Assembly (NCBI GenBank): GCA_003202005.1
Contig: QJJF01000001.1
Coordinates: 589,099 to 653,098 of the forward strand
Source: Williamsia faeni
Lineage (GTDB): Bacteria > Actinomycetota > Actinomycetes > Mycobacteriales > Mycobacteriaceae
DNA: 64,000 nucleotides
Direction of reading: 5' to 3'
Part shown: one piece after another, positions 4,502 through 32,309 of the stretch
Position numbering within the stretch: the stretch's first letter is position 1
Layout: each line of letters opens with the position of its first letter
Made by a program: the position numbers and the translations under genes
Notes under the pieces: generated by a model
Seen by the model: the letters and a program-made list of their open reading frames with translations, nothing else
Told to the model about the DNA's origin: nothing
Database searches by the model: none

Positions 4502-4502
4502 A

Positions 4503-5699: not shown

Positions 5700-5880
5700 G
5701 AGTTGACTGTACCCAGCCGACTGCGCTCGCCTGATCGTAAGTGGCCGGAAAACACAATAAACTGTCGCAGGGTGACGAGGTCGACAAGTTTCGCTCGATG
5801 GGTGCACATTTTGCGCAACCATCGGAACATGCCTCTCACCTGGCATTATCGGTAGATCAACGGAGAGGCCGGGCTATAGC

Positions 5881-7035: not shown

Positions 7036-7036
7036 G

Positions 7037-8230
7037 CTACTCCGCGCCCGACTCCGGTGGTGCGCCCGCCCCCGGTGCTGGCGGGTTGGCCGCGTCGTCG
7101 GGCGGGCTGGGCTCGACCGAGGGCGTGGTTGTGGTCGTCGTCGACCCGGTGGAGGACGGGGGCGTTTCGCTGGTTGTAGTGGACGACGGTGGTGGCGGAG
7201 GCGGAGGTGTCTGCGTGATCGTGGTCGGTGGCGGGACCACGGTGACCACGGGCGGCTCCTCCGTCGTCACCGGAGCCTGCGTGGTCTCGGGAGGCAGTGT
7301 CGGTGAGGAGATCGTCGGCCGCGGCGTCGACTTCTTCGACGTCGTGGTCGTGGTGGTGGTCGACGTCGTGGACTGCGTGGTCGAGTGGTCGTCGACGGCG
7401 CTCTTGGGGATGCTCGAGTCGCCGGTCATCACCACTGCGGCAACCACACCGATCGCGACGAGCAGCGCGGCTGCGGCCGCTGCCGACAACAGCACCCACC
7501 GGCTGTTGTTCCCTCTGACCACGGTCGTCGAGGCGGCAACCCGCGCGGCACCATAGGCGGCGGCGTACTGCCCGTCCTCGGTGACCTGGACCGGTAGCTG
7601 CAACGCATATTCGAGAGACGGTGCGACACCCGGAATCGCTGCACCCGGTCCGAGGACCGCGATGCCCTGCAACGCACCGGTCGGGTTGCCGATCACGCCG
7701 ACCGCATCGGCGAGGAGTTGCGCTCCGTCGGGTTCGGTGACCGGTGGACGGACACCGACGCCGGAGATCTCACTGGCACCGACGACCACCCGGGTGTCGG
7801 TGTCGACCAGGGCCACGGACTGGCCGGGGAACAGCGCGCCGGACCTGTCGAGGTCGGCGACGAGCACCACACCGCGCGCACCGAACAGCACGGCGGCGAT
7901 CTCCGCGTAGGCCACCGGGCTTCCGACCACGGTCGTCCGGGCAAACCAGTCCGGTGTCGTCGGGGCCACCCCGGGCTCGGCGGGAAGCTGACCGGAATTG
8001 ATGATGCCGCCGATGGCAAGGGTGGTGGCGCTGTCGGCACACGCGATGGTGATCGCCGACGGCACGATCGGCGCGGACTGGACCAGCTGATAGATCGCGT
8101 CGAACACGTGGTCCGGGGACGAACTCGGCAGCTCCACAAAGTTGCGGGCCAGCACTTCGCCGGTATCAGAGTCGGCGACAACCGATGCGATCTCCAGGTC
8201 GGTGACCGATATACCGAGTACCTGGTTCAT
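7037..8230 (-). CDS. Single-pass membrane protein with Pro/Thr-rich tail (DUF7159-like)
   Basis: 397 residues from the ATG at 8228-8230 (a second ATG lies 7 codons upstream). The N-terminal 240 residues look like a soluble domain opening with VLGISVTDLEIASVVADSDTG. I associate this pattern with a conserved actinobacterial family of unknown role. A transmembrane helix follows (WVLLSAAAAAALLVAIGVV). The remaining 130 residues are almost all Thr, Ser and Pro with TTTTTT and PPPPPP runs, and probably lie outside the membrane. The reading frame is very GC-biased, so several opposite-strand frames stay open across it; these are shadows. It lies downstream of hspR on the same strand, across a 33-bp tandem repeat. 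Function is unknown. Confidence 0.72.
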   Translation of the reverse strand: MNQVLGISVTDLEIASVVADSDTGEVLARNFVELPSSSPDHVFDAIYQLVQSAPIVPSAITIACADSATTLAIGGIINSGQLPAEPGVAPTTPDWFARTTVVGSPVAYAEIAAVLFGARGVVLVADLDRSGALFPGQSVALVDTDTRVVVGASEISGVGVRPPVTEPDGAQLLADAVGVIGNPTGALQGIAVLGPGAAIPGVAPSLEYALQLPVQVTEDGQYAAAYGAARVAASTTVVRGNNSRWVLLSAAAAAALLVAIGVVAAVVMTGDSSIPKSAVDDHSTTQSTTSTTTTTTTSKKSTPRPTISSPTLPPETTQAPVTTEEPPVVTVVPPPTTITQTPPPPPPPSSTTTSETPPSSTGSTTTTTTPSVEPSPPDDAANPPAPGAGAPPESGAE

Positions 8231-8272
8231 GCTGATTAATCGCCCTGTCATCTGTTTGTGTTACCCAACGGA

Positions 8273-8338
8273 GACGTAGCGTAGCGGAGCTCGACCCTGT
8301 TCGGGGACGTAGCGTAGCGGAGTTGGACCCGATTCGGG
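8273..8338. repeat. Two tandem copies of a 33-bp direct repeat
   Basis: Copy one is 8273-8305 and copy two is 8306-8338. Each begins GACGTAGCGTAGCGGAG and ends TTCGGG, with 4 differences in 33 positions. The pair fills the gap between the hspR stop (8341) and the leader of the next gene and is itself non-coding. There is no clear terminator hairpin in it. Confidence 0.85.
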
Positions 8339-8340
8339 AG

Positions 8341-8757
8341 TTACCGATTACCTCGTTCTCGTCGCGGTTTCCAGACCACGAGAGCGTTGGTGCGGGGGAT
8401 CGGGACGAGTTCGCTGCCCCGTGCCGCGCGGTGTTGCGCGAGCTCGGCCTCGAGTTCGCGGACCCGGCTCTGCAGAGCATCGACCTGGTTTGTCAGGTCG
8501 ATGACGCGTTTGATCCCGGCGAGGTTCACGCCGTCGTCCTGCGAGAGACGTTGCACCATGCGCAGGAGCTCCACATCGCGACTGGAATAGCGCCGACCGC
8601 CCCCGGCCGCACGCTGCGGGGTGACCAGTCCGAGCCGGTCGTAGGTCCGCAGCGTCTGGGCGTGCATCCCGGCGAGCTCGGCCGCCACCGAGATCACGAA
8701 CATCCGGGCGGACTCGGTGACGTCCCGTTCGCGATCATCCGGCGGCGGCGCGCTCAT
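8341..8757 (-). CDS. hspR: HspR, MerR-family heat shock repressor
   Basis: 138 residues. The MerR-type winged helix-turn-helix is at about residues 18-85 ([25 protein letters not shown], then [32 protein letters not shown]), followed by a short coiled coil. It is the last gene of dnaK-grpE-dnaJ-hspR, and its start overlaps the dnaJ stop by 4 nt (ATGA). In actinobacteria HspR represses this same operon by binding HAIR elements, with DnaK as co-repressor. Two HAIR-like sites lie upstream of dnaK here, so autoregulation is expected. The C-terminal tail [17 protein letters not shown] is typical in being basic. Confidence 0.96.
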
Positions 8758-9944
8758 GACTTGCCCCAGTTTGCACGCGGGTCGAACCCGCTGGCCTTCT
8801 CTGCGGCGGCGTACTTGGTCAGTGCCTCGACCGCGGCGTCGTCCAATGTCGGCGGGACGGCAACTTTGACGGTCACCAGCAGGTCACCGGCACCGCCGGC
8901 CCGCTTCGCCACACCGCGTCCCCGCACCCGGAGAGTCCGTCCGTCGACGGTGTTCGGCGGGACCTTCAAGCCCACGCTGCCCTCGAGGGTCGGCACCGAC
9001 ACCGTGGTGCCCAGTACGAGCTCCGAGAAGCTGACCGGCAACGTCACCTTGATGTCGTCGCCGCTGCGGGTGAACGTCCGGTCGGGTGACACATTGACGA
9101 TGACGTAGAGGTCGCCCGACGGGGCACCACGCAGACCCGCCTCGCCTTGTCCGGCGAGTCGGATCTTGCCGCCGTTCGAAACACCGGGCGGGATCCGCAC
9201 GGTGATCGGACGGGTCCGGATCGTTGCGCCGTTGCCCTCGCAGACGGGGCAGGGATCGTCGATCCGCGAGCCGGTGCCACGGCAATCCGTGCAGGGTTCG
9301 CTGAATCCGAAGGCGCCCTGGTTGCGACTGACCACACCGGCACCGTTGCAGGTCGGGCACACCCGAGGGCTGGTACCCGGCTTGGCGCCACTGCCATGGC
9401 AGTTGGTGCAGGGCGCAGAGCTCGTGACCGTGATGGTGGTCGAGGTGCCGAGTGCAGCTTCTTTGAAGCTGAGCGTGGTCTCGGTCTCCAGGTCGTTGCC
9501 GCGTCGGCTCCGGGGCTGGGTGCCCCGCGATCCACCGCCACCTCGGTTGAACAGCCCACCGAACAGGTCACCGAGGTTCGCCTCGGATCCGCCACCGGGT
9601 CCGTCGCCGAACAGGTCGTTGATGTTGAATTCCTGGCCGCCGGACGGGCCACCGAAGCCACCGGGGAAACCGCCCCCGCCGCCTCGGGCACCGCCGCGGG
9701 CACCGGCGAACATGCGCCGGGTGTCGTCGTACTCTTTGCGTTTTGCCGGATCAGAAAGGACGCTGTGCGCCTCGGAGACAAGCTTGAACCGCTCCTCGGC
9801 TGCCGCGTCGTTCGGGTTGGCGTCGGGATGTAGTTCCCGGGCCAGCTTCCGATAGGCCTTCTTGATCTCGTCGGCGGACGCACCGGGCGCGACGCCCAGC
9901 GCTTTGTAGAAGTCCTGTTCCAGCCACTCACGTTGTGGGGCCAC
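8754..9944 (-). CDS. dnaJ: DnaJ (Hsp40) co-chaperone
   Basis: 396 residues from a GTG start with a near-perfect AAGGAGGTGA upstream. The J domain (about 10-75) has the HPD motif at 39-41. A Gly/Phe-rich stretch follows (about 80-145). The zinc region has four CxxCxGxG repeats ([32 protein letters not shown]), then the C-terminal substrate domains. It stimulates the DnaK ATPase and presents unfolded clients. It is separated from grpE by 120 bp that contain a strong hairpin and an A-rich leader, unlike the overlapping junctions elsewhere in the operon. Confidence 0.97.
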
Positions 9945-20113: not shown

Positions 20114-23100
20114 GTGAATGCCACGACGATCACCCTAGGAACCATCGGGCTCCTTCTCAGCCTGGTGTGCTGGGCCTTATTCCTACGTGGAGTGGGCCGC
20201 ATCTTCCGAACGATCATGAAGGGACAACCGGCGCCCGACCGGTGGCGTCCCTTCATCCCGCGCTTCAAGACGATGGTCGTCGAGTTCATCGCCCACACCC
20301 GGATGAACAAATTCCGGACGGTGGGCTGGGCCCACTGGCTGGTGATGATCGGCTTCCTGCTGGGTTCGCTGTTGTGGTTCGAGGCCTACGGCCAGACGTT
20401 CAACCCCGAGTTCCACTGGCCCCTCTTCGGCGACACGTTCATCTGGCACCTGCTTGATGAGATCCTCGGCCTGGGCACCGTGATCGGCATCATGACGCTG
20501 ATCATCATCCGTCAGCTCAACCATCCGCGAGTGCCCGAACGGCTGTCCCGATTCGGTGGCTCGCGGTTCCGTGCCGCGTACTTCGTCGAGATCGTGGTGC
20601 TGCTCGAGGGCCTGGGCATGATCTTCGTCAAGGCCGGCAAGATCGCCACCTACGGCCACTCGGATCCCGCATCCGATTTCTTCACGATGCAGGTCGCCAA
20701 GCTCCTCCCCGCCAGCGTCGTCATGGTGTCGATCTTCGCGTTCATCAAGCTGATGAGCGGCATGATCTGGCTGGCCGTTGTCGGCCTGAACATCACCTGG
20801 GGTGTCGCGTGGCACCGGTTCGCGGCGTTCTTCAACATCTACTTCAAGCGTGAGGACGACGGCGGCGTCGCACTCGGTGCTGCCAAGCCGATGATCTCCG
20901 GCGGCAAGGTCCTCGACATGGAGACCGCAGACCCCGACGTCGACGCGTTCGGCGCCGGCAAGATCGAGGACTTCTCCTGGAAGGGCTGGCTCGATTTCAC
21001 CACGTGTACCGAGTGTGGTCGCTGCCAGAGCCAGTGCCCCGCCTGGAACACCGGAAAGCCGTTGTCGCCCAAGCTGCTCATCATGTCGCTGCGTGACCAT
21101 GGCTATGCCAAGGCTCCGTACCTGCTCGCCGGTGGCAAGAAGGACATGGGCGGCGACGAGGTCGGTCTCGTCGACGGCGACGGCAACGTCAAACAGGACA
21201 AGCTCGACGCGATCCCCGAAGCCGCCCGCCTCGAAGCCGAGCGCAAGCTCGTCGGTGAGAGCGAAGGCGCGACCGGCGCCGTCATCGACACCGAAACGCT
21301 GTGGAGCTGCACCACCTGTGGCGCCTGCGTGGAGCAGTGCCCCGTCGACATCGAACACGTCGACCACATCATCGACATGCGCCGCTACCAGGTTCTGATC
21401 GAGTCGGACTTCCCGACCGAGTTGGCCGGCCTGTTCAAGAACCTCGAGAACAAGGGCAACCCCTGGGGCCAGAACTCTAAGGACCGCACCAAGTGGATCG
21501 ACGAGATGGACATCGAGATCCCGGTGTTCGGCAAGGACGTCGAGAGCTTCGAAGGATTCGAATACCTCTTCTGGGTCGGTTGTGCCGGCGCCTATGAGGA
21601 CCGCGCCAAGAAGACCACCAAGGCCGTTGCCGAGCTGCTCGACATCGCCGCCGTCGACTTCCTGGTCCTCGGCGAGGGCGAGACCTGTACCGGTGACTCC
21701 GCTCGCCGCGCGGGCAACGAGTTCCTGTTCCAGATGCTGGCGCAGCAGAACATCGAGATGCTCGGCGAGGTCTTTGCCACCGCCCCGAATCAGAAGAAGA
21801 AGATCGTCGTCACCTGTGCGCACTGCTTCAACGCGCTGGGCAACGAGTACCCGCAGGTCGGTGGCACGTACGAGGTTGTGCACCACACCCAGCTGCTGAA
21901 CCGGCTGGTCCGCGACAAGCGCCTGATCCCGGTTGCCGAGGTCAACGAGGACATCACCTACCACGACCCCTGCTACCTGGGACGCCACAACAAGGTCTAC
22001 GACGCTCCCCGTGAGCTGATGGCCGCGTCGGGCGCCAACCTGAAGGAAATGCCTCGCCACGGCGAGCGGTCGATGTGCTGTGGCGCCGGCGGTGCCCGCA
22101 TGTGGATGGAAGAGACCATCGGCAAGCGCATCAACGTCGACCGGGTCGACGAAGCACTGGCGACCAACCCCAAAAAGGTTGCGACCGGCTGCCCGTTCTG
22201 TCGCGTGATGCTGACCGACGGTGTGACCGCTCAGATCGCGGGCACCGAGAAGGAGGGCCAGGTCGAGGTTGTCGACGTTGCGCAGCTGATCCTGGAGTCC
22301 GTCAAACGTGGCGCCCCCGAGATCAAGCGTGGCGGACGGTTCCTCGGAGCTGCATCGCTCGGCCTGTCGGCTCCCACGATCGAGCCGGAAGAGACGAAGG
22401 CACCGGAACCGGCCAAGGCCGCAGTAGCTACCGCTGCTGCTGCCACCGCGTCGACGGTCACGGTCGACAAGCCCAAGATCGGCGGCGGACTGGGCATCGG
22501 CGGCGGGGCCAAGAAACCCGGCGGCGGAGCCCCGAAGCCGGGTGGACTCGGCATCGGCGGCGGGGCCAAGAAGCCCGGCGGCGGAGCGCCCAAACCAGGT
22601 GGAGCGAAGCCGGCCGCACCGGCCGCACCGGCCGCACCGGCCGCACCGGCCGCACCGGCCGAAGCAGCAGCAACCGAGGCACCGGCAGCCGAGACCGCGG
22701 CACCCGCGGCCAAGGGTCTGGCGATCGGCGGCGGCGCCAAGCGTCCGGGAGCACCCCGGCCCGGCGGCGCAGCCAAGAAGCCCGGCGCGGCCAAGCCCGC
22801 GGCGGCAGCACCCACCACTGAAGCAGCACCGGCAGCACCCGCAGCCGAGGCAGCACCGGAGGAGACCAAGCCGGCAGCCGCACCGGTGAAGGGTCTGGCC
22901 ATCGGTGGCGGCGCCAAGCGTCCGGGAGCACCCCGGCCCGGCGGCGCAGCCAAGAAGCCAGGCGCAGCAAAGCCGGCTGCGGCAGCACCGGCAGCTGAGC
23001 CGGAGCAGCCCGTTGAGTCGGCTCCTGAAGAAGTTGTCACCGAGGCCGTCACCGACACCGTGACCGAAGCTCCGAAAGAGCCTGCGGTTCCGGTGAAGGG

Positions 23101-23392
23101 TCTGGCAATGGGTGGGGCCGCGAAGCGTCCGGGCGCAAAACGTCCGGGAGCTCCGAAGCCGGCCGCAGCAGCCGAGCCGGCTGAGGAAGCGGTAGAGACA
23201 GCCCCACCGGCAGCCGAAGAGCCGGAGGCCCCGGCAGTCGAGGCAGAAGCACCCGCGGCTGTCGAGCCGGAATCGGCACCGGCAGCGACGGGTTCGAACA
23301 ACTCCGATGGCCGCGCGCTGGCCGAGTCCGGCCCGACCAAGGCCAAGGGCTTCGGAATCGCGGCCGGCAAGAAGCGTCCGGGCAAGAGCTGA
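20114..23392 (+). CDS. Membrane Fe-S oxidoreductase (Rv0338c-type) with long Ala/Pro/Gly repeat tail
   Basis: 1092 residues from GTG. The N-terminal 250 residues hold about five to six transmembrane helices resembling a NarI/HdrE cytochrome b module. Two ferredoxin-type clusters follow (CTECGRCQSQCP near residue 298, CTTCGACVEQCP near 400), then two CCG-type domains (CPxxN-like region, CCGAGGARMW near 655, and GCPFCRVMLTDG). This is the heterodisulfide-reductase-like protein encoded next to the AspC-type aminotransferase in mycobacteria, where it is essential. Its electron partner is not known. The last 310 residues are low complexity, with repeated blocks KGLAIGGGAKRPGAPRPGGA, and make the protein about 200 residues longer than the roughly 880 I recall for the M. 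tuberculosis homologue. Confidence 0.9.
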   Translation: MNATTITLGTIGLLLSLVCWALFLRGVGRIFRTIMKGQPAPDRWRPFIPRFKTMVVEFIAHTRMNKFRTVGWAHWLVMIGFLLGSLLWFEAYGQTFNPEFHWPLFGDTFIWHLLDEILGLGTVIGIMTLIIIRQLNHPRVPERLSRFGGSRFRAAYFVEIVVLLEGLGMIFVKAGKIATYGHSDPASDFFTMQVAKLLPASVVMVSIFAFIKLMSGMIWLAVVGLNITWGVAWHRFAAFFNIYFKREDDGGVALGAAKPMISGGKVLDMETADPDVDAFGAGKIEDFSWKGWLDFTTCTECGRCQSQCPAWNTGKPLSPKLLIMSLRDHGYAKAPYLLAGGKKDMGGDEVGLVDGDGNVKQDKLDAIPEAARLEAERKLVGESEGATGAVIDTETLWSCTTCGACVEQCPVDIEHVDHIIDMRRYQVLIESDFPTELAGLFKNLENKGNPWGQNSKDRTKWIDEMDIEIPVFGKDVESFEGFEYLFWVGCAGAYEDRAKKTTKAVAELLDIAAVDFLVLGEGETCTGDSARRAGNEFLFQMLAQQNIEMLGEVFATAPNQKKKIVVTCAHCFNALGNEYPQVGGTYEVVHHTQLLNRLVRDKRLIPVAEVNEDITYHDPCYLGRHNKVYDAPRELMAASGANLKEMPRHGERSMCCGAGGARMWMEETIGKRINVDRVDEALATNPKKVATGCPFCRVMLTDGVTAQIAGTEKEGQVEVVDVAQLILESVKRGAPEIKRGGRFLGAASLGLSAPTIEPEETKAPEPAKAAVATAAAATASTVTVDKPKIGGGLGIGGGAKKPGGGAPKPGGLGIGGGAKKPGGGAPKPGGAKPAAPAAPAAPAAPAAPAEAAATEAPAAETAAPAAKGLAIGGGAKRPGAPRPGGAAKKPGAAKPAAAAPTTEAAPAAPAAEAAPEETKPAAAPVKGLAIGGGAKRPGAPRPGGAAKKPGAAKPAAAAPAAEPEQPVESAPEEVVTEAVTDTVTEAPKEPAVPVKGLAMGGAAKRPGAKRPGAPKPAAAAEPAEEAVETAPPAAEEPEAPAVEAEAPAAVEPESAPAATGSNNSDGRALAESGPTKAKGFGIAAGKKRPGKS
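22612..22656 (+). repeat. Five perfect copies of a 9-bp repeat inside the Fe-S gene
   Basis: GGCCGCACC is repeated five times without a mismatch, coding (Ala-Ala-Pro) units. Flanking it, two roughly 100-bp near-identical blocks start at about 22712 and 22889. Such arrays change copy number easily by slippage. Confidence 0.9.
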
Positions 23393-23398
23393 CGGTCT

Positions 23399-23487
23399 GG
23401 GGGCAACGAGTATTCAGCGGCGATCGCAGGTCCGAAATGTCGGCATTTGCGAGTGATAGCAACGCACGCTGAAACTCGCTTGCCCCC
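23399..23487. promoter_or_regulatory. Long imperfect inverted repeat between Fe-S gene and aminotransferase
   Basis: GGGGGCAACGAG...CAGCG (23399-23419) pairs with CGCTG...CTTGCCCCC (23467-23487) with a few bulges around a 47-nt interior. It occupies most of the 114-bp gap. It may act as a terminator for the Fe-S gene or as a leader structure; the aminotransferase start follows 20 bp later. Confidence 0.45.
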
Positions 23488-23506
23488 TACTGGCACCATA
23501 AGGGGC

Positions 23507-24760
23507 GTGAGCAGACCACACGTTTCGCATGTTTATCGCGACCTGAAACCCCTCGAGCAATCGGCGAAGCTACGCAACGTCGCCTACGAGATCCGCGGAC
23601 CCGTGACGGCCCATGCCGCCCGCCTCGAGGCCGAGGGCCACCGGATCCTCAAACTGAACATCGGCAATCCCGCCCAGTTCGGCTTCGAGGCCCCGGACGT
23701 GATCATGCGCGACATGATCCACGCTCTCCCCTATTCGCAGGGCTACAGCGAGTCGCTGGGCGTTCTGTCCGCCCGCCGTGCCGTCGTGACGCGTTATGAG
23801 CTGCTGCCCGACTTCCCGTACTTCGACGTCGACGACGTGATCCTGGGCAACGGTGTCTCCGAGCTGATCACGATGACCATGCAGGCTCTCCTCGATGACG
23901 GCGACGAGGTGCTGATCCCATCGCCGGACTATCCGCTGTGGACCGCCATGACGGCGCTGTCCGGGGGCAAGGCCGTCCACTACGCGTGCGACGAGTCCAA
24001 CGACTGGAACCCCGACATCGAAGACATCGCGGCCAAGATCACCCCGCGCACCAAGGCGCTCCTGGTGATCAACCCGAACAACCCCACCGGCGCTGTCTAT
24101 TCGCGCGAGGTCCTCACCCAGATCGTCGAGTTGGCGCGCAAGCATTCGCTGCTGATCCTCGCCGATGAGATCTACGACAAGATCCTGTACGACGAGGCCA
24201 AGCACATCAACATCGCCTCGCTTGCGCCCGATCTGCTGTGCCTGACCTTCAACGGCCTGTCCAAGGCGTACCGGGTGTGTGGTTACCGGGCCGGCTGGGT
24301 CGCGATCACCGGCCCCCAAGATCATGCCAAGGGTTTCGTTGACGGCATGAAGATGCTGGCGTCGACACGTTTGTGCTCAAATGTGCCGGGCCAGCACGCA
24401 ATTCAGGTAGCACTGGGTGGCTATCAGAGCATCGATGCCCTCGTCCTCCCCGGCGGACGGCTGCTGGAACAGCGCAATGTCACCTGGGAGAAACTCAACG
24501 AGATTCCCGGCGTCAGCTGCGTGAAGCCGATGGGCGCGCTGTATGCGTTCCCCAAGATCGACCCCGAGGTGCACGAGATCCACGACGACGAGAAATTCGT
24601 CACCGATCTGCTCCTGCGCGAGAAGATCCTGGTTGTCCAGGGAACGGGCTTCAACTGGCCCAACTCCGACCACTTCCGCGTCGTCACCCTGCCCTGGGCC
24701 CGCGACCTCACCGACGCCATCGATCGCCTGGGCAACTTCCTGGCCAGCTACAAGCAGTAG
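23507..24760 (+). CDS. PLP-dependent class I aminotransferase (AspC/AlaA type)
   Basis: 417 residues from GTG 23507; an upstream TTG is possible but has no ribosome binding site. Fold type I features: GNGVSELITMTMQALLDDGDEVLIPSPDYPLWTA, NPNNPTGAVYSREVL, LADEIYDKILYD, and the PLP lysine in FNGLSKAYRVCGYRAGW. It ends GNFLASYKQ. It closely resembles, by my recollection, mycobacterial Rv0337c (annotated aspC; AlaA-like proteins use alanine/glutamate). Its position after the Fe-S reductase is the conserved mycobacterial pairing, although the two genes are on opposite sides of a hairpin here. Confidence 0.92.
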   Translation: MSRPHVSHVYRDLKPLEQSAKLRNVAYEIRGPVTAHAARLEAEGHRILKLNIGNPAQFGFEAPDVIMRDMIHALPYSQGYSESLGVLSARRAVVTRYELLPDFPYFDVDDVILGNGVSELITMTMQALLDDGDEVLIPSPDYPLWTAMTALSGGKAVHYACDESNDWNPDIEDIAAKITPRTKALLVINPNNPTGAVYSREVLTQIVELARKHSLLILADEIYDKILYDEAKHINIASLAPDLLCLTFNGLSKAYRVCGYRAGWVAITGPQDHAKGFVDGMKMLASTRLCSNVPGQHAIQVALGGYQSIDALVLPGGRLLEQRNVTWEKLNEIPGVSCVKPMGALYAFPKIDPEVHEIHDDEKFVTDLLLREKILVVQGTGFNWPNSDHFRVVTLPWARDLTDAIDRLGNFLASYKQ

Positions 24761-24823: not shown

Positions 24824-24902
24824 GTGCTGGTCGGACCCCTGGTGATTTATATGTGACTGCTGGTAACGTCTAATGCATCACAGCGAGCTCAAAGGGGAGT
24901 TG

Positions 24903-26471
24903 ATGACCGCTATTGATCAGAAGATCGACTGGCAACGACGAACGGTCACTCGTGGGGGCATAGAGCTGGCCGTGTTCGAACTCGGGCACCGAGCGCAGGA
25001 TCGACCGACCGTGGTGCTGGTGCACGGGTGGCCGGACACGCACCACCTGTGGACTCAGATGGCGGCCGAACTGGCCCGGCGTTACCACGTGGTCGCCTAT
25101 GACACTCGCGGTTATGGGGAGAGCGACCGCCCGGACGGGGACGCTGCCTATCGCCTGCCCGAACTCGCCGCTGACCTGTACGCGGTCATCGACACGTTCA
25201 GTCCGGACCTGCCGGTTCACGTGGTCGCCCACGACTGGGGTTCGGTTCAGACCTGGGAGGCCGTCAGCGTACCGGGCGCCGAGCGGCGGATCGCATCCTT
25301 CATGTCGGTGTCAGGCCCGAATATGGACCATCTGAGTGTGTGGACCCGAGAGCGGCTACGGCGACCGACACCGAAGTCGTTGGCACAAGCACTTTCTCAG
25401 GGATTATCGTCTGCCTACACCGTGGTCTTCCAACTGCCGGTGATCCCAAAGATCCTGTTGAGCACCGCGATACGCCCGGCGCGCTGGCAGAGGTGGCTCA
25501 ACAAGCTCGAAGGCACCGACCCCGACAATCTCGATCTTGCGCCGACATTTCGCGCCGACACGATATCCGGCCTGCGCTACTACCGCGCCAACATTCGCGA
25601 ACGGATGCGCAAGCCCAACCCGCGGAGCACAAGAGTTCCTGTCTTCGAGATCGTCAACACCCGAGATGTCGCGTTGCGCAAGGCAATTTACGTCAACAGC
25701 CATCGGTACGTCGATCGTCTCTGGCGCAACGACACCCCGACCGGCCATTGGCTGCCCTATACGAACCCCGACTATCTGGCCAACATGGCAACCCAATTCA
25801 TCGAAACGATCCGGGGAACCGCCTCGTCTCCCATCATCGACCGCGCCCGCCAGGACGGTCGCCATCGTCTGCTGTCCGGAAAACTCGCCGTGGTCACGGG
25901 AGCCGGCAGCGGAATCGGACGTCGCACAGCATCTCTGCTGGCCGACAACGGTGCCGAGGTCATCGTCACCGACATCGACCTGACCTCGGCCAGGCGGACC
26001 GCGGCGACCATCATGTCCACCGGAAACACGGCCCACGCCTACGAACTCGATGTCACCGACAGCAGTGCGTTCGCCGCATTCGCCGACGACGTGACACGGC
26101 GGTTCGGTGTTGCCGACCTGGTGGTGAACAACGCCGACGTCAGTGTCGCCGGTCAGGTACTCGACAACAACGTGCTCGCGGTGATCACCGGAAGTCGACT
26201 CTTCGGCCAGCGGATGGTCGATCGTGGTGTCGGTGGGCACATCGTGAACATCTCATCGGCCGGGTACGCCGCCGGAAAAGCCGGCATCCTGATGTTCAGC
26301 GAAACGCTTCGCACCGAACTCGCCGAACACCACATCGGGGTGTCGGCGGTTTGCCCCGATCAGATCGGGGAGCAGCTGCAGGCCATGATGACCGACCTGC
26401 ACCGGCGCAGCGGTTTCACCCCGAAGTGGCTCGAAAGATTGCCCGGGCGAACCCGTTCCGGGAGGGCATGA
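24903..26471 (+). CDS. EphD-like alpha/beta hydrolase fused to a decayed SDR domain
   Basis: 522 residues from ATG 24903, which has AAAGGGGAG upstream. Residues 1-305 are an epoxide-hydrolase-type alpha/beta hydrolase: HGWPD 41-45, nucleophile Asp111 in HDWGS, and catalytic His282 in GHWLPY. Residues 325-522 are an SDR domain like that of EphD (about 590 residues in M. tuberculosis). The cofactor motif TGAGSGIG (332-339) is intact. However, the segment with the catalytic Asn is shortened, Ser452 is only three residues before Tyr455 (normally about thirteen), and the C-terminus leaves the family sequence after GFTPK. The SDR half is probably inactive. The stop overlaps the next start (ATGA). 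Confidence 0.82.
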   Translation: MTAIDQKIDWQRRTVTRGGIELAVFELGHRAQDRPTVVLVHGWPDTHHLWTQMAAELARRYHVVAYDTRGYGESDRPDGDAAYRLPELAADLYAVIDTFSPDLPVHVVAHDWGSVQTWEAVSVPGAERRIASFMSVSGPNMDHLSVWTRERLRRPTPKSLAQALSQGLSSAYTVVFQLPVIPKILLSTAIRPARWQRWLNKLEGTDPDNLDLAPTFRADTISGLRYYRANIRERMRKPNPRSTRVPVFEIVNTRDVALRKAIYVNSHRYVDRLWRNDTPTGHWLPYTNPDYLANMATQFIETIRGTASSPIIDRARQDGRHRLLSGKLAVVTGAGSGIGRRTASLLADNGAEVIVTDIDLTSARRTAATIMSTGNTAHAYELDVTDSSAFAAFADDVTRRFGVADLVVNNADVSVAGQVLDNNVLAVITGSRLFGQRMVDRGVGGHIVNISSAGYAAGKAGILMFSETLRTELAEHHIGVSAVCPDQIGEQLQAMMTDLHRRSGFTPKWLERLPGRTRSGRA

Positions 26472-27346
26472 TGTACAACTTCGATCCAGGACCAGTCGAA
26501 CTCCACGCCCGCAACGTCGAGTTCGACTGGAAAGACACACCGCTGCACTGGATTCCGGATCATCCGGTTCCATCCAACGTGGCCAGCATGCTGAACCTGT
26601 TGCTCCCCGAAGGTGAGCGGTGGTTTGTGCAGACCTACAACGAAGCGCTGCCATTGGTGCAAGACGAAGAACTCGCCTCGGCCATGCGCGGATTCATCGG
26701 CCAAGAGGCGATGCACGCCGAAACCCACGACCGGGTGCTGTGGGAGTTCCTGGAAACACGCGGTCTCGACCCCGCGCCCTTTCAGAAACAGATGGAATGG
26801 GTGTTCCGCAAGGTCCTCGGACCGTCGCAGCACCCGGATGCCGATGTGCGGCATAAACATCTGGTCGAGCGACTTTGGTTCATCGCGGCCATCGAGCATT
26901 ACACCGCCATCCTGGGTGACTTCGCTCTCAACAACACCTGGACCGAGTACAACGCCGACGCGGTGATGGCCGACCTGTTTCGGTGGCATGGCGCAGAGGA
27001 GGTCGAACACCGCGAGGTGGCCCACGATGTGGCCACCTACTTCGGTGACAGCTATCTCAAGCGCGGACGCGCGATGCTGGTGGTTCTGCCGGCGCTGTTG
27101 TTCGTGATCAACCGGGGCACCAAATTCCTTGCCCTGAACGATCCCGGCGGCAAAATCGGTTACACGAGACTGATGCTCGGATACTTCCGGGGAGCGCACA
27201 AGGGACTGCTGCCCACGGTTCGATCCATCATCCTGGCCACCTTCACCTATTTCAAACCCTCGTTCCGGCCGACACAGGTCGGATCCACCGCCCAGGCTGT
27301 CGCATATCTCGCGTCATCTCCGGCAGCAAGGGCCGCGAACAAGTGA
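26468..27346 (+). CDS. PF10118 metal-dependent hydrolase family; probable di-iron oxygenase component
   Basis: 292 residues from ATG 26468 with GGGAGGG upstream; the start overlaps the previous stop and the end overlaps the next GTG. The family is named for predicted metal-dependent hydrolases. The conserved acids and histidines, however, fit a ferritin-like di-iron bundle: Glu50 (GERWFV), Glu80 and His83 (GQEAMH), Glu143 (IEHYTA), Glu178 and His181 (AEEVEH). All are conserved in the paralogue at 43392. A hydrophobic hairpin follows (about 202-215). The C-terminus GSTAQAVAYLASSPAARAANK is also shared. Coupling to an FAD/2Fe-2S reductase suggests an oxygenase that receives electrons from it. 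Confidence 0.85.
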   Translation: MMYNFDPGPVELHARNVEFDWKDTPLHWIPDHPVPSNVASMLNLLLPEGERWFVQTYNEALPLVQDEELASAMRGFIGQEAMHAETHDRVLWEFLETRGLDPAPFQKQMEWVFRKVLGPSQHPDADVRHKHLVERLWFIAAIEHYTAILGDFALNNTWTEYNADAVMADLFRWHGAEEVEHREVAHDVATYFGDSYLKRGRAMLVVLPALLFVINRGTKFLALNDPGGKIGYTRLMLGYFRGAHKGLLPTVRSIILATFTYFKPSFRPTQVGSTAQAVAYLASSPAARAANK

Positions 27347-28461
27347 ATCAGCGTCACCTCGAGCACACCACCACCATGACCTCCGCGCCTCCACACTTGC
27401 GGGGGCGATACCAGCGCGATCCCGCGATGCGGGTTGCCAGTGTCATCGGCAAGGTCTGGTTTCCGTTGTGGGGCAGGTTCACCCATCTGGACATCCCCGG
27501 TCCGGCCGACCAGGTCACCACGCTGAAGGTTGTCGGACGTGAGGTGGTCGCGCACGACAACAACGTCGTTGCACTGACGATGGCCGCACCCGATGGCGGT
27601 GAGTTGACACCCTGGTACGCCGGGGCGCATCTCGATCTGCTGCTCCCGTCCGGCCGGATGCGGGAGTATTCCCTGTGCGGCGACCCGGCCGACCGTAACC
27701 GCTATCGCATCGCGGTCCGGCGGATCCCTGACGGAGGCGGCGGATCGATCGAGGTGCACGACACCCTCACCATCGGCAGCTCTGTCCGGATCAAAGGTCC
27801 GCGCAACGCATTTCCGCTGGCCGCGCCCGGCCACGGATCGCCGGCGAAGAAGCTGCGATTCATTGCCGGTGGCATCGGCATCACACCGATCCTGCCCATG
27901 CTGGGCGCCGCCCAGCGTCTCGGACTGGACTGGTCGATGCTCTACACCGGCCGCACAGCTGCCACACTGCCATTCCTCGACGAACTCACCGGCTACGGCG
28001 ACAAAGTGGCCATCCGCACCGATGACAGATACGGACTACCCAGCGCCGCAGATCTTCTCGGTCCGATGGATGCCGGAACCGCGGTGTACTGCTGCGGTCC
28101 GCCACCGATGCTTCACACAATCCGCACCGAACTACTCGGACGCGGCGACGTCGAACTCCACTTCGAGCGCTTCAGCCCACCACCGGTGGAGAACGGCCGA
28201 CCGTTCACCGTCACCATCGGCTCGAGTGACCGGAGGATCGCGGTCGGTGCAACAGAGTCCGCACTGGCAGCGATTCGGCGGGAGCTGCCGTCGGTCCCCT
28301 ACTCCTGCCAACAGGGATTTTGCGGAACCTGCAAGGTCCGAGTTCTGGAAGGCGCCGTGGATCACCGCGACAACATCCTCACCGGACCCGAACGTGATGC
28401 CGGCGTGATGCTCACCTGTGTGTCCCGCGCCGAAGGAAATCACCTTCGCCTCGATCTATAG
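27343..28461 (+). CDS. Ferredoxin reductase with C-terminal 2Fe-2S domain
   Basis: 372 residues from GTG 27343, which overlaps the preceding stop (GTGA). Order: short N-terminal segment, FAD-binding barrel with REYSLCGDP, NAD-binding region GGIGITPILPMLGAAQ and YCCGPPPML, then a plant-type [2Fe-2S] domain with CQQGFCGTC and the distal Cys in LTCVSRAEG. This is the phthalate-dioxygenase-reductase layout. It passes electrons from NAD(P)H through FAD and the cluster to an oxygenase; the PF10118 protein upstream is the obvious partner. Confidence 0.93.
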   Translation: MNQRHLEHTTTMTSAPPHLRGRYQRDPAMRVASVIGKVWFPLWGRFTHLDIPGPADQVTTLKVVGREVVAHDNNVVALTMAAPDGGELTPWYAGAHLDLLLPSGRMREYSLCGDPADRNRYRIAVRRIPDGGGGSIEVHDTLTIGSSVRIKGPRNAFPLAAPGHGSPAKKLRFIAGGIGITPILPMLGAAQRLGLDWSMLYTGRTAATLPFLDELTGYGDKVAIRTDDRYGLPSAADLLGPMDAGTAVYCCGPPPMLHTIRTELLGRGDVELHFERFSPPPVENGRPFTVTIGSSDRRIAVGATESALAAIRRELPSVPYSCQQGFCGTCKVRVLEGAVDHRDNILTGPERDAGVMLTCVSRAEGNHLRLDL

Positions 28462-28493: not shown

Positions 28494-29987
28494 ATGGCAA
28501 CAGCCAACATCCAGCAGCCTGACCACACCGTTGCGATAGTCGGTGCCGGGTTCGGCGGACTTGCTGCCGGAATCAAGCTGCAGGAACGCGGTATCGACGA
28601 CTACGTCATCTTCGACCGCAACGACGATGTCGGTGGCACCTGGCTCGCGAACCGGTATCCCGGCGTCGAGGTCGACATCCCCTCGGTGACATATTCGTAC
28701 AAGTTCGCCCTGAATCCCGAGTGGTCCCAGGTGTTCGCCCCCGGCGCGGAGTTGCTGCAGTACGCCCGAGACATCGCCGAGCGATATGGCATCCGGGGGC
28801 ACATCCGGTTCGGAACTCAAGTCACCGCAGCCGACTTCGACGACTCCACCGATCTGTGGACCATCACCACCGCGGCCGGAGACAGGGTCACCGCACGATT
28901 CCTGATCTCATGCCATGGCGCACTGTCGACACCGGCCACCCCGGACCTGCCCGGCCTGGAGAGCTTCTCGGGCAAGGTGCTGCGATCGGCATCGTGGGAT
29001 CACGACTACGACCTGACTGGGAAGAAGGTCGCCGTCATCGGCACCGGCGCCACCGGCATCCAGATCATCCCGACCATCGCACCGCAGGTCCAGCACCTGA
29101 CCGTGCTGCAACGCACGGCGATCTGGGTCCTGCCCAAGCCGAATGCGCCCATCCCCGGCTTCCTGCGCAACATCTACCGCGCGATCCCCAAACTTCAACT
29201 GCTGCCCCGTTTTCTCATCGACTCGACCTTCGAGATCGCCGAGACGATCGGGGTGGTCCACAACAAACAACTGCCGGCCATCACCCGCGGGATGGAAAAG
29301 CTGTGCCGGCGACATCTGCACAGCCAGATCAAGGACAAGCGGATCCGCGAGCAGCTCACACCACACTATGGCTACGCCTGCAAACGCCCGTCGTTCTCCA
29401 ATGACTACTTCCCGACGTTCAACCGCGACAATGTCGATCTGGAAACCGAATCGATCTCGCAGATCACCAGTACCGGAATCGAATTCGCCGATGGCAGCAA
29501 TCTCGAGATCGACACCTTGATCCTGGCAACCGGATTCAAGATCTTCGACCTGCCGTACGAGATCAGCGGCATCGACGGCCAGGATCTGTCGAAGACATGG
29601 GATTCCGAACGGATGTACTCCTACGAGGGAATCACCGTTCCGGGTTTCCCCAACCTGTTCCTGGCACCGGGTCCGTACGGTGTCATCGGCTTCTCGTGGT
29701 TCGACACGATCGAGCTGTGTGTCACCCACGCCGTGCAAGTGGTCGCCAAGGCCGTAAAGTCCGGTTCGCCTCGGGTCAGCGCCACCGACGAGCAGACCAC
29801 CGAGTTCGTGGAGAAGATGCGCAAAAAGGTGCGCAGCACGGTCTTTGCAAGTCCGCGCTGCGCCGGGTCGAATACGTATTACATCAACGCCCAGGGCGAT
29901 TCGCCCTACCTTCGGCCGACCACTCGGATCGAGTCGGCGCGCTCACTCCGCAAGGCACTCAAAGAAGGCTACGAGTACTCGGCCTGA
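28494..29987 (+). CDS. Flavin-containing monooxygenase (Baeyer-Villiger type) with altered fingerprint
   Basis: 497 residues with AGGAG before the ATG. The FAD motif is GAGFGG (17-22), then DVGGTWLANRYPGVEVDIPS. The fingerprint FxGxxxHxxxW(D/P) reads FSGKVLRSASWD (about 159-170), with Arg in the His position. The NADPH motif is GTGATG. BVMOs insert oxygen next to ketones or oxidise S and N. It follows the PF10118 reductase by 32 bp and completes the oxidation cluster. The 3' end overlaps the convergent MFS gene by 29 bp. Confidence 0.87.
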   Translation: MATANIQQPDHTVAIVGAGFGGLAAGIKLQERGIDDYVIFDRNDDVGGTWLANRYPGVEVDIPSVTYSYKFALNPEWSQVFAPGAELLQYARDIAERYGIRGHIRFGTQVTAADFDDSTDLWTITTAAGDRVTARFLISCHGALSTPATPDLPGLESFSGKVLRSASWDHDYDLTGKKVAVIGTGATGIQIIPTIAPQVQHLTVLQRTAIWVLPKPNAPIPGFLRNIYRAIPKLQLLPRFLIDSTFEIAETIGVVHNKQLPAITRGMEKLCRRHLHSQIKDKRIREQLTPHYGYACKRPSFSNDYFPTFNRDNVDLETESISQITSTGIEFADGSNLEIDTLILATGFKIFDLPYEISGIDGQDLSKTWDSERMYSYEGITVPGFPNLFLAPGPYGVIGFSWFDTIELCVTHAVQVVAKAVKSGSPRVSATDEQTTEFVEKMRKKVRSTVFASPRCAGSNTYYINAQGDSPYLRPTTRIESARSLRKALKEGYEYSA

Positions 29988-31581
29988 CGTTCGCGCTCGT
30001 CGAGTACACATCGTCGGCGACAACTTCGGCGACCACGGCATTGCCGAGTTTGTCGCCACGCAGGGTGAACCAGGCGATCGGCGCTGCCAGTCCGGCCGCC
30101 GCGATCGCCGCGATGACCGAAACGTGGAGGCCGTCGACAAACGCATCCTGGATGGTCACGAGTATCTGCTGGCCTGATGCCCCGCCGATACCCGACGCCA
30201 TCTCCACCCCGGCCATCACCGAGTTCTTCGCGGTGTCAACGGCTTCGGGCGGCAGTCCGACATTGTCGAGTTGGGTTCCGATCTCGGCGGTGTAGACCGA
30301 GGTGAGGATGGAACCGAGAACTGCCACACCCAGGGTTCCACCGATTTCGCGGGTCACGTCGTTGACCGCTGAACCGGCACCGGTCTGATCCGCAGACAAC
30401 GAGTTGGTGATGATGTTGGTCGCGGGACCCTGAACAAGCGCCAGTCCCATCGCCATCAGGCTCATCGACCAGATGATCAGGCCCCAGTACGACGCATCCC
30501 GGCCCGCCACCAGGACCAATGCGAATCCGCCCGCCATGGTGGCCGAGCCCAGCGCTGCCACCCGGCCGGGACCGATCTTCCGGGCGAAAATCATTGCCAG
30601 TGGCGAGAATACGGCCATCACGACTGCGAATGGCAGCGTGTGCAGGCCGGCGGAGAGCGGGCCGTAACCTTTGACGGCCTGGAAGTACTGGGTGATCAGG
30701 AAGATGAACCCGAAGAGGCTGAAGAACGCCACCGCGATAAGACCCGATGCCACCGAGAAATGCCGGTTCGCGAAGAGCCGGACATTGAGGATCGGGTGCA
30801 CCGATCGCAGCTCACGCAGTACAAAGAGCGTGAGAATGACTGCGGCTCCGACGAATCCGGCGATCGAGACGGCGGAATCCCAGCCATGGTTCGGCCCTTC
30901 GATGAGGGTGTAGACCAGCAACGCGACACCTGCGATGGACGTGATCGCACCGATGGCATCAAACGGACCCGGCTGCGCCTTGCCACCACTGGGCACCACC
31001 AGCGCAACACCCACCAGGACGGCAGCGGCGATCGGTAGATTGACCCAGAACACCGAGGACCACGAGTAGTGCTCGAGCAGCCAGCCACCGAGGACCGGAC
31101 CGATCGCCACGGCGATACCCGATGTACCAGCCCAGATGCCGACGGCGATCGCACGTTCCTTGAGGTCGGGGAACAATCCGATCAGCAGTGACAGCGTCGC
31201 CGGGAACACCATGGCGGCAAACAATCCGAGCCCGGCCCGGGTTGCGATGAGTTGCCCCAGTGTTTGCGATTCGGCAGCGACGACCGAGACCGCGGCAAAC
31301 CCGAGGACACCGATCACCAACATCCTGCGGCGGCCGAAGCGATCCGCGAAGTGTCCGGCGGTCAGAAGCAGTCCCGCGAAGGTCAGCGTGTAGGCATCGA
31401 CAACCCACTGCAGACCGGAATTGTCGGCGGAGAGGTCACGGCTGATGGTCGGCAGTGCCACGTTGACGATGGTGTTGTCGATCATCACCAGCAGCACCGC
31501 GCCGCAGAGGGCGGCCAGTGCCCACCAGCGCTTGTCGGTTGCCGGCGATGTCGCCGGCGCAACCAGGGTTCGGTCACTCAT
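29959..31581 (-). CDS. MFS exporter, DHA2 family, 14 helices
   Basis: 540 residues. Motif A appears as GHFADRFGRRRMLVIGVLGF, motif C region as GPVLGGWLLEHYSWSSVFWVNLPIA, and the DHA2 marks VVDAYTLTFAGLLL and GSAVNDVTREIGGTLGVAVLGS are clear. It probably exports drugs or toxic organics by proton antiport. GAGGAG precedes the ATG. It is divergent from the TetR gene at 31701 across a 14-bp palindrome, the standard layout for a self-regulated efflux pair. Confidence 0.92.
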   Translation of the reverse strand: MSDRTLVAPATSPATDKRWWALAALCGAVLLVMIDNTIVNVALPTISRDLSADNSGLQWVVDAYTLTFAGLLLTAGHFADRFGRRRMLVIGVLGFAAVSVVAAESQTLGQLIATRAGLGLFAAMVFPATLSLLIGLFPDLKERAIAVGIWAGTSGIAVAIGPVLGGWLLEHYSWSSVFWVNLPIAAAVLVGVALVVPSGGKAQPGPFDAIGAITSIAGVALLVYTLIEGPNHGWDSAVSIAGFVGAAVILTLFVLRELRSVHPILNVRLFANRHFSVASGLIAVAFFSLFGFIFLITQYFQAVKGYGPLSAGLHTLPFAVVMAVFSPLAMIFARKIGPGRVAALGSATMAGGFALVLVAGRDASYWGLIIWSMSLMAMGLALVQGPATNIITNSLSADQTGAGSAVNDVTREIGGTLGVAVLGSILTSVYTAEIGTQLDNVGLPPEAVDTAKNSVMAGVEMASGIGGASGQQILVTIQDAFVDGLHVSVIAAIAAAGLAAPIAWFTLRGDKLGNAVVAEVVADDVYSTSANVRPSTRSLL

Positions 31582-31642: not shown

Positions 31643-31700
31643 ACGCTGTGCCACAATGGTGTCAAGTGTTATCGAGGGCGTTTATGAAAGGATCGAGGTC

Positions 31701-32309
31701 GTGGCAGCAAGATCGCCGGGAACGGCAACGCGAACTCCAGCCGGTGACGTGCGCGGACTGTTATTGGCCGCCGCTTTGCGGGTCCTCGATGAGCACGGCG
31801 AAAAAGGTCTGACAGTTCGGGCGGTCGCGACCGAGGCCGGTGTGGCGCCGATGGGTGTCTACAACCACTTCGAGGGCAAATCCGGCTTGATGACCGCGGT
31901 GGTCACCGAAGGGTTTACTCAACTGCGCGCGATGATCGGCGGTGTGGTCGATTCCGACACCGCGGCCCGACTCCGGGGTGCAGGTGTGGCCTACCGCGAC
32001 TTCGCCCTCCGATCACCCACGCTGTACCGGCTGATGTTCTCCGGTCAGTGCAAGCCCGAGGGCGACCTCGGCGAAACCGCCCTCTACGCCCTGACCGAGA
32101 TCATCCGGCACGGACAGGCGGCCGGAACCATCAGGGACGGCGACCCGATGATCCTGACGTTGCAGATCTGGGCCTGTGTCCACGGCGCAGTCAGCCTCGA
32201 GATCGATGCGCGCGAGTTCGACGGCGGTGGCCCGGCCGGCACCAACTCGCACTGGCCCCACGTCTACGAGCAGACCCTCGACCTGATCAGCCGCGGTGTC
32301 GCACCCTAG
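31701..32309 (+). CDS. TetR family regulator
   Basis: 202 residues from GTG 31701, chosen because AAAGGA lies 8 bp upstream; an ATG at 31656 in frame has no such site. The DNA-binding domain is AALRVLDEHGEKGLTVRAVATEAGVAPMGVYNHFEGKSGLMTAV. The C-terminal domain fits the TetR_C family with YRDFALRSPTLYRLMFSG. It most likely represses the divergent MFS exporter and itself and is released by the exported compound. Confidence 0.9.
   Translation: MAARSPGTATRTPAGDVRGLLLAAALRVLDEHGEKGLTVRAVATEAGVAPMGVYNHFEGKSGLMTAVVTEGFTQLRAMIGGVVDSDTAARLRGAGVAYRDFALRSPTLYRLMFSGQCKPEGDLGETALYALTEIIRHGQAAGTIRDGDPMILTLQIWACVHGAVSLEIDAREFDGGGPAGTNSHWPHVYEQTLDLISRGVAP

Follow-up and report, generated by a model that had tools for sequence, protein, structure and literature searches.

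A PF10118 protein and its adjoining reductase in Williamsia faeni: a probable two-component di-iron oxygenase

Ferritin-like di-iron proteins carry their metal ligands in the order Glu, ExxH, Glu, ExxH. Among the described systems closest to the one treated here, the site of AurF consists of three histidines and four carboxylates, and the dimetal halogenases CylC and NocO display the motifs QExxH and HxxDExxH (both from the part of PMC12101540 consulted). The locus described here lies in a stretch of 64,000 nucleotides from Williamsia faeni (GenBank assembly GCA_003202005.1, contig QJJF01000001.1, positions 589,099 to 653,098), the whole of which is termed the window. It contains a gene for a protein of family PF10118, which is labelled 'predicted metal-dependent hydrolase' in Pfam and whose members are annotated 'metal-dependent hydrolase' in public plasmid records. 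This gene overlaps one for a flavin/[2Fe-2S] reductase of the phthalate dioxygenase reductase (PDR)/VanB type. The two products probably represent a two-component, soluble, ferritin-like di-iron monooxygenase with its electron donor, a reading drawn from the fold, ligand pattern, reductase type, gene overlap and recurrence as they appear in sequences or predicted models.

The initial annotation of this DNA placed the two open reading frames correctly and proposed an oxygenase with its electron supplier. That proposal is supported by ligand conservation, by the models of both window copies, by their fold neighbours and by co-occurrence with the reductase in both directions. A limited search of open-licence literature found no characterised PF10118 member and no naming of the family as an oxygenase. 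What appears to be new is a ferritin-like di-iron oxygenase of a known kind, here with its own PDR-type reductase. The hydrolase label would then send annotation of the family the wrong way. PF10118 proteins probably serve to oxidise oily molecules, since the gene adjoins that of its electron supplier and, in many cases, that of an enzyme which opens epoxides.

Candidate metal ligands and predicted fold

Two PF10118 matches are found in the assembly (44 contigs, E ≤ 0.001). Both are in the window, and the second PF10118 and reductase pair lies about 16 kb downstream of the first (Table 1). The first copy matches the Pfam family at E 9.3e-68, and the two copies score 229 and 249.7 bits against a cut-off of 33.2. 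An alignment of 68 rows comprises the two window copies, 27 named orthologs, 27 further members from the actinobacterial phylum and 12 from a plasmid collection (actinobacteria and proteobacteria); the fragment L057 was left out. Residues E49, F75, Q78, E79, H82, H86, E142, W172, H173, E176, E177, E179, H180 and P267 are invariant, and all rows share the motif order E ... QExxHxxxH ... E ... HxxEExEH. The distance from E49 to E79 is 29 or 30 residues, from E79 to E142 51 to 66, from E142 to H173 31 or 32, and from H173 to E177 always 4. Six conserved acids and histidines had been singled out in the initial annotation, and all six are identical in the 68 aligned members. Their numbers (E50, E80, H83, E143, E178 and H181) become E49, E79, H82, E142, E177 and H180, because the ATG at 26468 had been taken as the start instead of 26471. 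Conservation of these candidate ligands goes beyond chance, as they are identical throughout while identity to the window protein falls to 21% in a diverse subset of 46 rows.

The candidate ligands E, ExxH, E, ExxH are present in every member, and each of four long predicted helices carries its share. In the model of the first copy, helices 45–62, 66–96, 124–154 and 164–191 bear E49; E79, H82 and H86; E142; and H173 to H180, respectively. The ferritin-like order proposed earlier is retained. The plain set of six ligands gives way to one that is probably AurF/CylC-like, with the additional invariant H173 and a Gln before the first ExxH. An extra histidine of the AurF type is seen as H173-x3-E177-x2-H180 in 68 of 68 proteins, where we assume the AurF numbering for a seventh ligand (H-x3-E-x2-H). 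Of the two CylC/NocO motifs, QExxH is present in all 68, and the second reads HxxEExxH instead of HxxDExxH in all 68. The PF10118 metal site is thus probably AurF/CylC-like, with the proteins falling outside either family as defined. The cut-off of the AurF family (PF11583) is 29.6 bits; the first copy has no match to it at E ≤ 10 and the second reaches 21.6 bits. For CylC/NocO, the difference is the change of Asp to Glu. The ligand spacing of 30/63/35 is close to what we take to be that of T4MO.

A radical halogenase of the CylC/NocO kind, which the Gln before ExxH sets apart from AurF, would fit part of this pattern. QExxH with HxxDExxH is the published dimetal-halogenase signature, to be compared with QExxH and HxxEExxH in 68 of 68 PF10118 proteins, and assays of NocO used ferredoxin, ferredoxin reductase and NADPH (PMC12101540, in the portion consulted). 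We regard this reading as most improbable. The Asp of HxxDExxH is replaced by Glu, and the nearest solved relatives of the partner hydrolases described below are epoxide hydrolases, and one partner belongs to the limonene-epoxide type, which is unrelated. The scanned window neighbours include neither a carrier protein nor a ligase, though locus L149 has an AMP-binding neighbour.

AlphaFold2 models were obtained for the first copy (pLDDT 85.2, pTM 0.85; 28 sequences, L008 left out) and the second (pLDDT 85.6, pTM 0.85; 23 sequences), and Foldseek comparison with the PDB gave 385 and 515 matches, respectively, at E ≤ 10. This was the check called for in the initial annotation, and both copies came out as ferritin-like, with fold neighbours nearly uniform in kind, though not significant by E-value. 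Among the PDB matches listed, 50 of 50 for the first copy and 49 of 50 for the second are ferritin-like di-metal proteins, a class judged from titles and general knowledge in redundant rows, with R2lox and R2 entries filling much of both lists. Neighbours among these matches are R2lox, R2, CmlI, AurF, cADO, sMMO and a desaturase. The one non-ferritin-like neighbour of the second copy is FlcD, presumably heme-oxygenase-like.

With cADO and acyl-ACP desaturase in the Foldseek lists, the enzyme could instead act on acyl chains or aldehydes, as a desaturase or an aldehyde-deformylating enzyme with the reductase as donor. Locus L149 is in keeping with this, as its upstream gene with AMP-binding and NAD_binding_4 domains is read as a carboxylate reductase. 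Such a neighbour is found in that locus only, the HxxEExxH ligand pattern is AurF/CylC-like, and the epoxide hydrolase linkage would be left unexplained; this alternative is considered unlikely.

Remote similarity to known families was also found by profile searches. The Pfam AurF family is touched by 12 of 46 members at E ≤ 1 (best 5e-6) and Ferritin_2 by 10 of 46 (best 1.4e-4). In the second window copy, the C-terminal half matches AurF at 1.3e-4 (21.6 bits) and the N-terminal half Ferritin_2 at 0.0029, both sub-threshold. When the 46 PF10118 rows were aligned by hhalign with 23 AurF homologs, E142, H173, E176, E177 and H180 were paired with conserved residues of the homologs.

Several of these results tell against a ferritin-like di-iron oxygenase. 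Foldseek gives no PDB match at E ≤ 0.001 (best 0.045 and 0.0077), and TM scores are mostly 0.3–0.54. No significant relative of PF10118 was found in the PDB, whether by single sequence or by profile, and the AurF and Ferritin_2 bit scores inspected fall below the Pfam cut-offs. The hhalign match is weak (P 0.018, probability 2.5%) and four residues off register at E79. The profile of the AurF homologs taken from relatives itself reached no solved chain at E ≤ 0.001, so the set may be a divergent AurF branch and hhalign a weak test.

The adjoining reductase and its recurrence

The window reductase has FAD_binding_6, NAD_binding_1 and Fer2 domains, in the PDR/VanB architecture. Its solved relatives are phthalate dioxygenase reductase (2pia, matched over residues 57–372 of the window protein) and the reductase part of a self-sufficient P450 (6laa, E 8.9e-59). 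Reductases of the phthalate dioxygenase reductase kind carry FMN rather than FAD, and homology to 2pia points to FMN as the cofactor here. In the earlier description as an FAD/[2Fe-2S] reductase, the [2Fe-2S] part holds, and the FAD is probably to be read as FMN. The genome contains 15 matches to the reductase at E ≤ 0.001, itself included, the closest paralog (51%) being the reductase of the second PF10118 pair.

The reductase is directly downstream of PF10118 in 27 of 27 named orthologs and at both window copies, and a PDR-type reductase is within 1.5 kb of PF10118 in 14 of 27 further actinobacterial loci. In the same flank, none occurs at AurF (0/30), phenol hydroxylase (0/15) or acyl-ACP desaturase (0/15) loci, a control set of 60 that includes L115 (under the Pfam cut-off) and several loci of one genome, and that asks for PDR-type reductases only. 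Co-occurrence across genomes, suggested earlier as a check, is therefore seen against the controls, and it is found from the other direction as well. There are 54 reductase matches in 31 genomes; 30 were examined and 21 have PF10118 within 1.5 kb. These are 19 of the 19 best reductase loci, 10 of which come from the window's genus, own genome included, and are not independent, and 2 of the 11 weaker ones.

Two further members have a ferredoxin reductase with Pyr_redox_2 and Reductase_C domains instead of the PDR type. This arrangement, with the reductase following PF10118, is noted at L145 3534–4745 and L147 6155–7384, an apparent swap of electron donor.

A Rieske oxygenase was considered as the partner of the reductase and rejected, as the genes scanned around the two window pairs include none. 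A crude six-frame scan for the Rieske motif matched 3 of 30 reductase loci (L154, L172 and L182); L172 and L182 are without PF10118, and the match in L154, the window's own locus, is taken for chance.

The PF10118 gene overlaps both neighbours, with junction sequences GCATGATG and AAGTGAAT. The stop codon of the upstream EphD-like gene (26469–26471) overlaps the PF10118 start, and the PF10118 stop is within the reductase start codon (GTGA, 27343–27346), as first described. This second overlap suggests translational coupling of PF10118 and reductase, and the earlier statement that the two proteins are made in equal amounts goes beyond what it indicates. The overlap is retained in L007–L009; other orthologs have small gaps, up to ~117 bases in L025 (by tblastn ends).

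The linkage also follows the family tree, which was built from 49 PF10118 proteins after 19 close orthologs had been dropped and in which long branches make deep splits unsure. The reductase label changes 4 times, compared with a shuffled mean of 16.5, and 0 of 500 shuffles are as low. Every row labelled with a reductase or an epoxide hydrolase falls within one set of 36 rows (SH-aLRT 98). Within this set, a PDR-type reductase accompanies 26 rows and one or the other kind of epoxide hydrolase 22, and L046 and L048 have another reductase. In a sample of 296 genomes from the phylum, 17 carry the family. Its plasmid-collection records, some of which are chromosome-sized (L061, L069), include Acinetobacter (56 of 76), Burkholderia, Rhodococcus and Mycolicibacterium.

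The reductase linkage bears on the family name as well. PF10118 could be a metal-dependent hydrolase as Pfam has it, or an iron or peroxide protein resembling ferritin or rubrerythrin, in which case the reductase would be accidental or a peroxide-reducing donor. The name itself and weak Rubrerythrin and bacterioferritin similarities in profile searches of PF10118 members favour this. It is very unlikely in our estimation, as ferritin-like oxidases and oxygenases predominate among the fold neighbours, the neighbouring genes (epoxide hydrolase, flavin monooxygenase) belong to an oxygenase pathway, and a PDR-type reductase present in 27 of 27 and 14 of 27 loci would have no evident use.

Epoxide hydrolase linkage and possible products

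In the mechanism proposed for the di-iron monooxygenase, the four core helices would hold two irons by E49, E79/H82 (H86), E142 and H173/E177/H180, in an AurF/CylC-like site. Electrons would pass from NAD(P)H to the flavin, to the [2Fe-2S] cluster of the PDR/VanB-type reductase and on to the di-iron site. O2 would be activated at the reduced di-iron center, and an oxygen atom put into a hydrophobic, perhaps lipid-like substrate. If the product is an epoxide, it would be handed to the neighbouring EphD epoxide hydrolase and opened to a diol, with the fused short-chain dehydrogenase/reductase (SDR) and the flavin monooxygenase (FMO) as optional later steps. In this clade an epoxide is the favoured product, though a tentative one, at somewhat less than even odds.

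The EphD-type and FMO genes named earlier as flanks are present at the window locus by domain matches. As clues to function they are of different value: the epoxide hydrolase half of EphD is the more telling neighbour, and the FMO is adjacent in 7 of 27 named loci only. In the hydrolase half, HGWP, D121, Y182, Y237, D265 and H292 are invariant in 25 of 25 aligned sequences, consisting of the window protein and those of 24 of 27 orthologs (open reading frames found by a motif filter, which missed L011, L012 and L019). This is the set of an alpha/beta epoxide hydrolase: HGxP, an Asp nucleophile, two Tyr, Asp and His. The roles of these residues, those of nucleophile and of the two lid tyrosines among them, are assigned by family likeness, and the best solved relatives of this half are epoxide hydrolases.

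An Asp-nucleophile epoxide hydrolase adjoins PF10118 in 27 of 27 orthologs, and the conserved core of the orthologous loci is hydrolase, oxygenase and reductase. Of 41 diverse loci (the two window copies, the 27 further actinobacterial-phylum members and the 12 from the plasmid collection), 13 have an Asp-elbow epoxide hydrolase within about 3 kb, upstream or downstream and always on the same strand; Burkholderia (L061), Acinetobacter (L063) and Dietzia (L062) records are among the 13. A PDR-type reductase is present in 18 of the 41 loci, 9 of which also have an epoxide hydrolase of either kind. The second kind is found in plasmid pGS01 of Rhodococcus fascians, where PF10118, reductase and a gene of the limonene-1,2-epoxide hydrolase family (LEH, 7.6e-15), of unrelated fold, overlap one another. 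Because a search of the genome with the hydrolase gives just 11 matches at E ≤ 1e-6, counting its own, a chance neighbourhood should be rare, and no such hydrolase was found around the 60 control loci.

The mycobacterial EphD and the limonene-type homolog EphG are both reported to open 9,10-cis-epoxystearate, and EphD to modify epoxymycolates (PMC7998700, as far as consulted). A fatty substrate is plausible on account of the first of these activities. Still more tentatively than the epoxide product itself, the 36-row set of the 49-row tree (actinobacteria and proteobacteria) may be a new class of single-polypeptide, AurF/CylC-like di-iron epoxygenases with reductase and epoxide hydrolase, the latter replaced by the limonene-type fold in one operon.

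The neighbourhoods also contain points that do not favour this. Half of the reductase-linked loci, 9 of 18, lack both kinds of epoxide hydrolase over about 5 kb, and the second window copy is one of these 9. The epoxide reading should thus not be carried over to the family as a whole. Three rows of the 36-row set (L058, L060 and L069) have neither a PDR-type reductase nor an epoxide hydrolase. The 13 of 49 tree rows outside it, from remoter subfamilies, have no PDR-type reductase and no Asp-elbow epoxide hydrolase in their flanks. Among these 13, L034 has an alpha/beta hydrolase on the opposite strand, with no Asp elbow, and L068 is 2 kb from the FAD reductase of a P450 cluster. Dehalogenases, which share the Asp nucleophile, appear lower among the solved relatives of the EphD half. 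The two window pairs may have different substrates, since no epoxide hydrolase gene lies within 5.5 kb of the second.

The same di-iron enzyme and reductase could act as a C–H hydroxylase, a variant of the core proposal. SDR oxidation, Baeyer–Villiger oxidation by the FMO and hydrolysis would then follow, as in sub-terminal alkane oxidation. In agreement with this, an FMO with the motif GGTWLANRYPGVEVD, which we take to be of the Baeyer–Villiger type, stands beside the window copy, an FMO gene is found again, in the same orientation, in L139, L153 and L187, and most orthologs have the SDR–hydrolase fusion. The alpha/beta hydrolase is at odds with it, in that it carries the epoxide hydrolase set with Asp nucleophile and two conserved Tyr and no esterase serine. 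Four of the 27 orthologs have no SDR half (L017, L024, L025 and L027, where gene spacing leaves no room for the domain). In the window, this half (25872–26468) has at least four in-frame deletions relative to five SDR-bearing Williamsia and Gordonia orthologs, one of them just before the catalytic Tyr; it is a decaying domain in an apparently live gene whose hydrolase half is intact. The FMO adjoins in the seven Williamsia-type loci (L003–L009) and is absent from the flanks of 18 of the other 20, Gordonia-type loci; in the remaining two (L013, L029) it is unseen in flanks that end too soon to judge. Its fingerprint, presumably that of FMO/Baeyer–Villiger enzymes, has Arg in place of His (FSGKVLRSASWD) in the window and in 7 of 7 Williamsia-type loci, while the L139 and L153 homologs keep the His. 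On balance, the hydroxylase pathway seems rather unlikely.

Gene layout and relation to known systems

The features of both pairs and their surroundings are given in Table 1. The closest named loci are from Williamsia, with 85% identity in the PF10118 protein.

Table 1. Positions of the two PF10118–reductase pairs, candidate ligand codons and surrounding genes in the window
Feature	Position	Strand	Remarks
Aminotransferase gene	23447–24760	+	Upstream of EphD-like gene
EphD-like gene, 532 aa, N-terminal epoxide hydrolase + C-terminal SDR	24873–26471	+	NF004514, E 4.5e-175
PF10118 protein, 291 aa, predicted ferritin-like di-iron oxygenase component	26471–27346 (alternative ATG 26468)	+	
E49 codon, first-helix candidate ligand	26615–26617	+	Invariant 68/68
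QEAMHAETH motif (Q78–H86), QExxHxxxH	26702–26728	+	Q78, E79, H82, H86 invariant 68/68
E142 codon, third-helix candidate ligand	26894–26896	+	Invariant 68/68
WHGAEEVEH motif (W172–H180), HxxEExxH, AurF/CylC-like	26984–27010	+	W172, H173, E176, E177, E179, H180 invariant 68/68
PDR/VanB-type reductase, 372 aa: flavin domain, NAD domain, C-terminal [2Fe-2S] (CQQGFCGTC...C)	27343–28461	+	2pia E 2.1e-51
FMO/Baeyer–Villiger-like flavin monooxygenase	28494–29987	+	
MFS transporter	29959–31581	-	Context
TetR regulator	31656–32309	+	Context; divergent from MFS gene
Second PF10118 protein, 304 aa	43356–44270	+	Same motifs as first
Second PDR/VanB-type reductase, 370 aa	44267–45379	+	Start overlaps PF10118 stop (ATGA)

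Other observations concern single loci. In L149, a gene for the AMP-binding and NAD_binding_4 protein read as carboxylate-reductase-like, PF10118, an epoxide hydrolase and a reductase lie on one strand (2939–9118). The remote PF10118 gene of L068 has as its neighbours genes for a P450, a 2Fe-2S protein and an FAD oxidoreductase. Over 10 kb, locus L009 shares 95% identity with Williamsia muralis, and its record (NZ_JNYV01000013.1) bears the title Kitasatospora arboriphila; the assembly is probably contaminated or mislabelled. At 20114–23392, the window encodes an Fe-S oxidoreductase (CCG domains) whose long tail, of low complexity and rich in Ala, Pro, Gly and Lys, is built from repeats resembling KKPGGGAPKPGG.

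If PF10118 proteins are di-iron oxygenases, their genes gain a testable function, a ready donor in the adjoining reductase and a clue to the product in the epoxide hydrolase. A soluble di-iron oxygenase of only two proteins would be attractive for biocatalysis, and if the epoxygenase class is real, a route of alkene or unsaturated-lipid oxidation has been hidden under the name of a hydrolase.

The proposed oxygenase resembles several known systems in part. R2lox and ribonucleotide reductase R2 are the top fold neighbours of the PF10118 models, a likeness at the level of fold only. The AurF/CmlI N-oxygenases (PF11583) are fold neighbours (5hyg, 5hyh, 2jcd), share the E, ExxH, E, H-x3-E-x2-H pattern and are reached by the sub-threshold Pfam matches of 12 of 46 members. 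The sequence relation is weak, and PF10118 has Gln where AurF has Asp before the first ExxH (consulted part of PMC12101540). In addition, PF10118 adjoins a PDR-type reductase, unlike the 30 AurF-family loci. With the CylC/NocO halogenases, compared by their published motifs (same part of PMC12101540), PF10118 shares QExxH and the three-histidine pattern; it differs in the Glu for Asp of HxxDExxH and in lying next to genes for an epoxide hydrolase and a PDR-type reductase.

Bacterial multicomponent monooxygenases (sMMO, T4MO, phenol hydroxylase) likewise combine an oxygenase with a flavin/[2Fe-2S] reductase, and sMMO and T4MO are among the fold neighbours of the second copy. In contrast to these, PF10118 would be a single oxygenase polypeptide, as genes for other subunits or for a coupling protein were not seen next to it, and the domain order of the reductase is that of PDR. 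Membership in the group was considered and rejected: PF02332 matches nothing in the genome at E ≤ 0.001, and the scanned neighbours belong to other families. The reductase is homologous to phthalate dioxygenase reductase/VanB over the region matched to 2pia and has the same C-terminal [2Fe-2S] domain. Its partner is PF10118, with no Rieske oxygenase among the scanned neighbours. Finally, the hydrolase gene shares the epoxide hydrolase and SDR fusion of mycobacterial EphD (NF004514) and differs from it in the decay of the SDR half and in its place in an operon with PF10118 and the reductase.

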